NCBI GenBank assembly: GCA_025677835.1
Contig: JAIXMR010000079.1
Location: forward strand, 1 to 64,000
Length of the DNA stretch: 64,000 nucleotides
Direction: 5' to 3'
DNA from: Sporodiniella umbellata
Lineage: Eukaryota > Mucoromycota > Mucoromycetes > Mucorales > Rhizopodaceae
Position 1 is the first letter of the stretch. Each line of letters begins with the position of its first letter. Position numbers and translations under genes: made by a program. Below the pieces are notes generated by a model, which was not told the DNA's origin, searched no databases, and was given only the letters and a program-made list of their open reading frames with translations. Below, in pieces: positions 45,395 to 46,955 of the stretch.

Positions 45395-45568
45395 TAATGT
45401 TATGTAGATACGGATTATATGAAGTATTGAAAGCATTACACGAGAGCAGAGGACCTTTGTTGTTATTATCATTCTTTTTATTGTTTTATCGAACTTTTAC
45501 TACATATAAATATATATAAACTGGAGCTTTTTGACTATAATATTGACTCCATCTTCTTTGTGAGAACA
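45395..45568. repeat. Left end and inverted terminal repeat of DIRS derivative
   Basis: 45395-45458 is the unique outer part and is repeated inverted at 45620-45683. 45455-45568 is the terminal repeat proper and is repeated inverted at 46240-46347. Confidence 0.8.
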
Positions 45569-45570
45569 TA

Positions 45571-45598
45571 ATAATAATAATAATAATAATAATAAAGG
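45571..45598. repeat. AAT trinucleotide repeat
   Basis: About nine consecutive ATA/AAT units inside the DIRS derivative, between the terminal repeat and the central region. Confidence 0.85.
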
Positions 45599-45619
45599 GA
45601 AGAGGAGGGCGGGAACAGC

Positions 45620-45709
45620 AAAGATCCTCTGCTCTCGTGTAATGTTTTCAATACTTCATATAATTCGTATCTACATAACATTACACTTCGAGCTGTCGGA
45701 TTTTTGTTG
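45620..45709. repeat. Internal complementary region (ICR) of DIRS derivative
   Basis: The first part is the inverse of the left element end and the second part the inverse of the right element end, overlapping at ACATTAC. This is the arrangement thought to template circle closure in DIRS replication. It overlaps the 3' end of the recombinase frame (KCNVM stop at 45671). Confidence 0.78.
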
Positions 45710-46105
45710 TGAATTTAGAGCAAGAACCTTCGTAAAATCAGTAGAAGTTGTAACAAAAATCCTGTAGAATTGTTCAAAAAGATTTTTTGAGGACCAATTT
45801 CCTTGTACTACGATATCGTCTACTGAAATTCCTGACTGAGCTGCTAGTGTAGCTCCCAATGCTCTAGCTTTTGGTAAAGGCATACTCGGTTATCTGGTCA
45901 TCTTCGTCATGATCAACTGTACGTGCTTTGATATCCTTTTTCGTCCCATCGCTTCTGAATACTTGTTGATTTTTCTAAATAGAGCGCTGGTCTTTATATC
46001 TGAAAAAATCGGGTGTGGTACCATAGCCTCTTCAAACATAGCTTCTGATGGTATAAAATCTGCATCTGGAGCTCGTAATACGACATTAGGATCATCGCTA
46101 ATCAT
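45671..46105 (-). pseudogene. Gag start fused to tyrosine recombinase C-terminus
   Basis: Two frames on the minus strand. The first (46105-45890) reads ISDDPNVVLRAPDADFIPSE and is gag-like, then passes into RISKHVQLIMTKM, the start of a recombinase C-terminal region. A stop follows. The second (45883-45671) reads KARALGATLAAQSGISVDDI, VVQGNWSSKNLFEQFYRI, with the Arg, the G-W-SS block and the catalytic-type Tyr of DIRS recombinases. The RT-RH part between gag and recombinase is absent, so this is an internal deletion joined in frame or nearly so. Not expected to be active. Confidence 0.75.
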
Positions 46106-46239
46106 AGGAGACTATTGAAGACGTTTCTCGAGTTGATCAATGCGTGCAAGTGAAGTATTAGCCCATACGGGAGGTTGTTCATCATTTGACATAATTGATC
46201 TACGGTTGTGTGAGTTCAAGAGCGTAGTAAATTTGTTCG

Positions 46240-46369
46240 AACAAAAAGAAGATGGAGTCAATATTATAACCAAAAAGTTTTAGTTTATATATATTTGTAT
46301 GTAGTAAAAGTTCGATAAAACAATAAAAAGAATGATAACAACAAAGATCCGACAGCTCGAAGTGTAATG
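46240..46369. repeat. Right end and inverted terminal repeat of DIRS derivative
   Basis: 46240-46347 is the inverse of 45455-45568; the terminal 46338-46369 is the inverse of 45678-45709 in the central region. Confidence 0.8.
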
Positions 46370-46955
46370 TGCTCTATTGCGTTACTATAGCAATTACAAA
46401 ATACGAATTTCATAAGGTTTTATTGAACTTTATCAGGCTTTTCTAAAAACTAAGCAAATCGCAATTTTTTTTTAGTGTTGCAAGAGTTTGACTAATAAAT
46501 ATTGCTTTTGATACAAAAATTGTTTGCGCTTAGGTTCTCTTTTGTTATAATAATAATTTACGTTTAAAGCTGAGATACTATAGCTATCTGTTATTTTTAT
46601 TTTAAAAAAAAACATATTATGTTTCTTCGCATAATTCGAGTTTATTTAAAGCCAACTAATCAGATTAGTGAGACTGTGTGTATGCGTATAAATATATTAT
46701 TATGGCATTTTGAACTATCAATATTCTAATCCTTGTAACCATGAATATAGAGGCATTTTTACATTTGTATTAGTCGGAAGAGTTGTTCAATTCTCACTGT
46801 AGACGGGACACAGTAGTCTCGAGAACTGCAATCATAATGTCTAAGGAACGACTTTTTTGTCGAATGTGGCCATCCAATGTACTGTCCAGAGAGTGTGTAA
46901 AATATAGTCGATTAGGGATATAAAGTGGATTTTAGGGGCTTCAGTGCTATTGTGG
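46370..46955. other. Intergenic region between the DIRS and LINE relics
   Basis: AT-rich, no supported gene. The 3' flank of the LINE relic probably lies in the right part. Confidence 0.4.

Follow-up and report, generated by a model that had tools for sequence, protein, structure and literature searches.

The question raised by this locus is whether a small unit with the ends of a DIRS retrotransposon belongs to a family of its own or is the remnant of a larger element. The unit, 975 bp long, is located at 45395-46369 of the window, the 64,000-nt stretch of Sporodiniella umbellata DNA analysed here. From the sequence alone, it had been proposed to be a miniature DIRS element, possibly of a non-autonomous family mobilised in trans. 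It could also be a single copy shortened by deletion.

Ends and internal region of the unit

Comparison of inverted segments revealed three inverse pairs of the ICR/ITR design of DIRS elements, arranged on the minus strand, which is the coding strand (Table 1). The left outer end matches ICR half 2 inversely over 70 nt (94%; 66 matches, 4 mismatches), and the right outer end matches ICR half 1 over 33 nt (97%). The two ICR halves overlap at 45678-45683, and the circle-junction sequence GTGTAATGTTATG is found where half 1 meets half 2. These matches bear out the sequence-only reading that the halves of the central block are the inverse of the outer ends. The inverted segments also align as they were described: the longest exact inverted repeat of the unit has 41 nt, compared with a maximum of 14 and a mean of 9.8 in 500 dinucleotide shuffles. 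The view of the termini themselves had to be modified. A core pair of 103 nt with 92% complementarity is present, but it is set in from the left end by 65 nt and from the right end by 25 nt, and the outermost ends pair with the central block only, not with each other. A DIRS architecture with its cis sequences kept was nevertheless recognised correctly: the unit has both ITRs, both outer ends, and both ICR halves, and each pairs with its partner.

Table 1. Positions of the features of the window unit and of the solo elements
Feature	Position	Strand	Remarks
Left outer end (coding-sense 3' terminus)	45395..45464	(-)	inverse of ICR half 2
3' ITR core	45460..45562	(-)	103 nt, 92% complementary to 46242-46344
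Spacer	45563..45613	(-)	AAT-type repeat and purine-rich tract
ICR half 2	45614..45683	(-)	inverse of left outer end
Predicted tyrosine recombinase, C-terminal fragment	45674..46033	(-)	EQFYR region kept, upstream part gone, overlaps ICR
ICR half 1	45678..45710	(-)	inverse of right outer end
Gag-like start fragment	46034..46192	(-)	ATG at 46192, in frame with recombinase fragment
5' ITR core	46242..46344	(-)	pairs with 45460-45562
Right outer end (coding-sense 5' terminus)	46338..46370	(-)	inverse of ICR half 1
Solo C34	L012:4782-5021		family 1
Solo C111	L013		family 1
Solo C101	L015		family 1
Solo C8	L017		family 1
Solo C185	L062		family 2
Solo C90	L070		family 3

Both ends have AAT in common (45396-45398 on the left, 46366-46368 on the right), which is present in the ICR as well, and the unit has a box in four copies, at 21, 662, 744, and 909 in coding coordinates. 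Around the insertion site, the two ends of the window copy have only TAATG in common. In ten of ten family-1 left ends, T is the last of the three bases preceding GTTATGTAG, the other two being variable. The 300 bases on either side of the unit are single-copy in the assembly.

Coding remnant and deletion junction

Between early gag and the final ~120 recombinase residues, nothing of the element is left in the unit. What remains is a fused gag-recombinase frame (minus strand, frame 0) containing two in-frame stops, one per fragment, and no frameshift. Aligned with residues 283-406 of the protein of another copy, C38, the recombinase fragment shows 82% identity. On the gag side, 46084-46192 is matched by the 5' end of C112; 46034-46083 has no match in any other copy found by DNA search, and its gag label follows from continuity of the frame alone. 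The deletion junction had originally been placed near RKRISKH. A position at this motif was rejected: the match to the C38 recombinase continues for 28 residues upstream of this motif, to AMVPHP, and the junction is therefore located near 46027-46033, with protein identity beginning at 46027 and the DNA match at 46033. The proposed joining of a gag start to a recombinase C-terminus thus stands as an in-frame fusion from the ATG, but at another junction and with two stops. No RT match was obtained in the unit, in line with the reverse transcriptase having been reported as absent from this copy.

Assignment of the recombinase fragment is by relationship. The C38 copy retains RT and recombinase sequence; its RT matches PF00078 (E 4.1e-23) above the Pfam cut-off, and matches to PF00336 and Dam are below it. 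The recombinase frame of C38 comprises 407 aa and is related to RO3G_08694 of Rhizopus delemar (56%), the predicted structure of which matches Cre, XerH, and Flp with a mean pLDDT of 54.6 and TM-scores to Cre below 0.4. Through C38 and this relative with its low-confidence model, the fragment is assigned as a predicted tyrosine recombinase. Pfam gave no match for the recombinase and none for the two window fragments, and a search of solved structures by sequence yielded one match with E 0.81. The missing Pfam match and the weak fold model would count against the tyrosine-recombinase reading. At gathering thresholds, Rfam detected nothing in the window or L009, and ARAGORN found no tRNA in the window.

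DIRS relatives in the assembly

The ends of the window unit are common to nine other loci, plus the diverged relative C166; relatives sharing the ends, C38 with its RT and recombinase sequence included, were thus found as the sequence-only reading had anticipated. Two further DIRS families were also detected, family 2 (C1 and solo C185) and family 3 (C187, C46, and solo C90), neither of which was among the DIRS matches of the family-1 DNA searches. Some copies stop at contig ends, which are found at C11, C112, C122, C187, and C46, and further copies may be collapsed or missing.

Several of these loci showed peculiarities of their own. The family-3 copies C187:113889-117089 and C46:337220-340416 are located near contig ends, and their 3' ends are 99% alike. 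In C187 the RT and recombinase frames are open; in C46 the recombinase is open, and the RT match is in two pieces, one with a TGA. From these sequences, the family of C187 and C46 was possibly active recently. At C112:277846-277915 (L011:4847-4916), the 5' end is preceded by ~45 bp of the outer sequence of the opposite end, inverted. This arrangement suggests either insertion into an older end, which would be self-targeted, or inversion by the recombinase between two GTGTAATGTT sites. The first ~75 residues of a predicted Gilbertella persicaria protein (P0011, 474 aa) resemble the C-terminus of a DIRS recombinase and are followed by other sequence; a fusion or an annotation artefact is possible.

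The window unit is very probably a relic

If the unit were a member of a true non-autonomous DIRS family that relies on full-length elements for copying in trans, its ends and ICR halves should be complete and match one another, as they do, and C38, a relative with RT and recombinase sequence, is present in the same genome; the fused frame without frameshift would also be consistent with such a family. However, the 33-mer spanning the junction has a single match in the 25.9-Mb assembly even with up to 3 mismatches allowed, no other DNA-search match to the unit spans the deletion, and the recombinase remnant shows past coding constraint. The non-autonomous family originally proposed is therefore very unlikely; mobilisation in trans of the single window copy is conceivable.

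Past constraint was apparent from the comparison with C38, which over 117 codons of the recombinase C-termini revealed 14 synonymous against 16 non-synonymous differences, a dN/dS of ~0.3 derived from small numbers and from two branches taken together. This value speaks against a lineage that had persisted for long after its release from coding constraint. In the published DIRS model, the outer ends are re-copied from the ICR in each round, and mismatches between them are hence a rough clock. Outer ends differ from the ICR at 4/70 and 1/33 positions in the window copy, at 4/67 in C38, and at 3/70 in C11. Judged from these sequences, end mismatches and dN/dS appear easier to reconcile with the relic of a coding lineage than with an old lineage of non-autonomous copies.

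Consequently, the unit is very probably one copy of a DIRS1-like tyrosine-recombinase retrotransposon that has suffered an internal deletion and is now dead. It is a deletion derivative, not an autonomous element, and in this assembly it does not make up a separate family but belongs to a small number of relics. The fused frame without frameshift could be read as having once been used, which would count against a dead relic; nothing else tested supports such use. An intact relative, as judged from the anatomy and the published DIRS model, would be transcribed from ITR to ITR and then reverse transcribed, the cDNA would be closed into a circle by bridging on the ICR, and the recombinase would insert the circle at a short match without target-site duplication.

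Permuted solo blocks

Searches of the assembly for these repeats revealed seven loci, distributed over three DIRS families, that contain a block of ~210-340 bp with permuted order. Six are solo insertions (Table 1), C156 is composite, and the solo counts are lower bounds. Those of family 1 are short insertions with one ITR core. A further candidate, C6, was dropped as a solo because gag-like sequence follows its core, as seen by eye.

In coding orientation, a normal 3' end reads ICR half 1, ICR half 2, spacer, core, and 3' outer end. This order is present in the window copy, C38, and C11, in C1 of family 2, and in C187 and C120 of family 3. In the solos, ICR half 1 comes last, after ICR half 2, spacer, and core, and a good 3' outer end is missing. 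The spacer between ICR half 2 and the core, as found in the window unit, is also kept in the family-1 solos. Order was determined with BLAST probes for C34, C111, C185, C90, and the C156 block, and by eye for C101 and C8, in which the remnant of ICR half 1 is too short for the BLAST step. Matches to ICR half 1 in C34, C111, and C156 are 93-100%. Matches to the 3' outer probe are weak in these three (69% over 62 columns, 82% over 39, and 74% over 34, respectively) and start at the common box. Relative to half 1, half 2, and core, the solo order is circularly permuted, with closure through this box, which is present both at the 5' edge of half 1 and where the core ends on its 3' side. At the join of core and half 1, ~10-12 bases are missing in C101 and C8, both of which also have ~10-base gaps elsewhere.

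Other rearranged ends were observed. In C156:90897-92469 (L069), the left end is solo-like, ICR half 2 is joined to pol at AACAAT, a 6-bp match, and a normal 5' end is found on the right; the same ~30-bp sequence occurs inverted on both flanks. Two family-3 relics, C137:79174-79492 (L068) and C169:127970-128227 (L071), consist of ICR half 2, core, and 3' outer end. They start at the ICR junction, and their flanks look palindromic and MITE-like by eye. At C44:2651-2880 (L014), the recombinase C-terminus is joined to the 3' outer end at the common box, with loss of ICR half 2 and the ITR core.

Possible origins of the solo blocks

We tentatively read the permuted solo blocks and C156 as fossils left in the genome when DIRS reverse transcription was short-circuited, a process in which mini-circles were formed and then integrated; we put the likelihood of this reading a little below even. 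First-strand cDNA synthesised from the 3' end of the RNA to ICR half 1 would begin and end with the same ~10-nt box. Its 5' end would already be annealed on the ICR, as bridging requires, and the advancing 3' end would meet that end. Closure on the box would yield a circle of ~210-340 bp with one circle junction, through which the recombinase would insert the mini-circle. By its sequence, C44 would be the complementary linear joint, from the box of half 1 to the 3' outer end. An exact closure at the box was no longer assumed, since the order core, box, and outer end is also that of any normal 5' end read backwards. By eye, no fixed difference exists between 5' and 3' ITR cores, and a join or crossover is therefore not placeable within core and box.

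The solos could instead have arisen in situ in two homologous steps: the interior would be inverted by way of the ITRs, and a deletion would follow between ICR half 2 and the 3' outer end, which are in direct orientation after the flip. On paper, this route leads to the same product as the mini-circle, repeats of ~100 and 45-70 bp are available for it, and ITR cores without fixed difference would not tell a join in the core from one at the box. One end of C156 is also ordered as if the interior had been flipped. However, apart from C156, none of nine order-informative loci is flipped, and C137 and C169 show the normal order too. The informative set consists of ten ends, the 5' and 3' ends of the window copy and those of C38, C11, C112, C1, C187, C46, C120, and C6; C122, C44, C166, C4 (not informative), and C165 were left out of the count. 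Inversion and deletion is a serious but doubtful explanation. C156 would fit neither this route nor the mini-circle simply.

Alternatively, the solos could have originated once and then spread as a MITE-like family through cut-and-paste by the recombinase. Both outer ends are retained in them, and with these the half sites of the recombinase; 7/209 sites differ between C34 and C111; and a tree of eight 3'-end units (supports 19-86) sets C34 and C8 apart with a support of 86. However, each of three DIRS families has a solo, and the four family-1 solos do not form one clade in this tree: C111 and C101 are placed elsewhere, with supports of 61 and 19-52. The difference between C8 and the other units is 19-36%. 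A single origin with subsequent transposition is thus unlikely.

Comparison with known elements

The DIRS1-like elements RoDIRS1, MciDIRS1, and PblDIRS1 of Mucoromycotina resemble the window copy in ITRs of ~100 bp, outer extensions matching the ICR only, an AAT circle junction, and a ~10-nt box in both ITRs and both ICRs, but they are 4274-4402 bp long, compared with 975 bp (Piednoel et al. 2011, PMC3266345). The ICR of RoDIRS1 is given as 59-44 (PMC3266345), with the larger value first and the order taken as left-right, whereas in the window copy the half belonging to the 3' terminus is larger (~70 vs 33). In DIRS-1 of Dictyostelium the ICR is complementary to both ends, as in the window copy, and an ICR-templated circular cDNA was proposed (PMC5633606); its ITRs, in contrast, have ~300 bp (PMC3266345, Table 3). 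Circular cDNA of DIRS-1 is reported from laboratory strains of Dictyostelium without agnA (PMC5633606, section 8). The solo AB repeats of Ngaro in Cafeteria are, like the DIRS solos, terminal-repeat-only relics of a tyrosine-recombinase retrotransposon (PMC8547959). Ngaro repeats are split direct repeats, however, and one recombination explains a solo, whereas DIRS repeats are inverted, and one recombination between ITRs would only invert the interior.

Section 8 of PMC5633606 does not describe a circularly permuted solo for DIRS-1 of Dictyostelium. The word 'solo' is absent from PMC3783388, PMC3266345, PMC5633606, and PMC9210276; it occurs once in PMC2685390, in a reference title, and three times in PMC5006619, referring to LTR elements in the passages shown. 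Titles and the beginnings of abstracts revealed no solo or permuted DIRS, which does not establish absence from print.

Significance of the solo blocks

The window copy itself is an ordinary relic, and the permuted solos are the part worth following. Bridging on the ICR was reportedly proposed in 1985, the literature on the model being said to include Cappello 1985 and Poulter and Goodwin 2005. According to section 8 of PMC5633606, full proof is still lacking for the model of an ICR-templated circle in DIRS replication, and this gives the solo blocks their importance. If true, the short circuit would be sequence-level evidence for the bridging step. Being short and gene-free, the solos could pass for MITEs; as permuted, end-only insertions with a predictable structure, they would be a simple diagnostic for genomes, and they would point to a specific small circle in cells.
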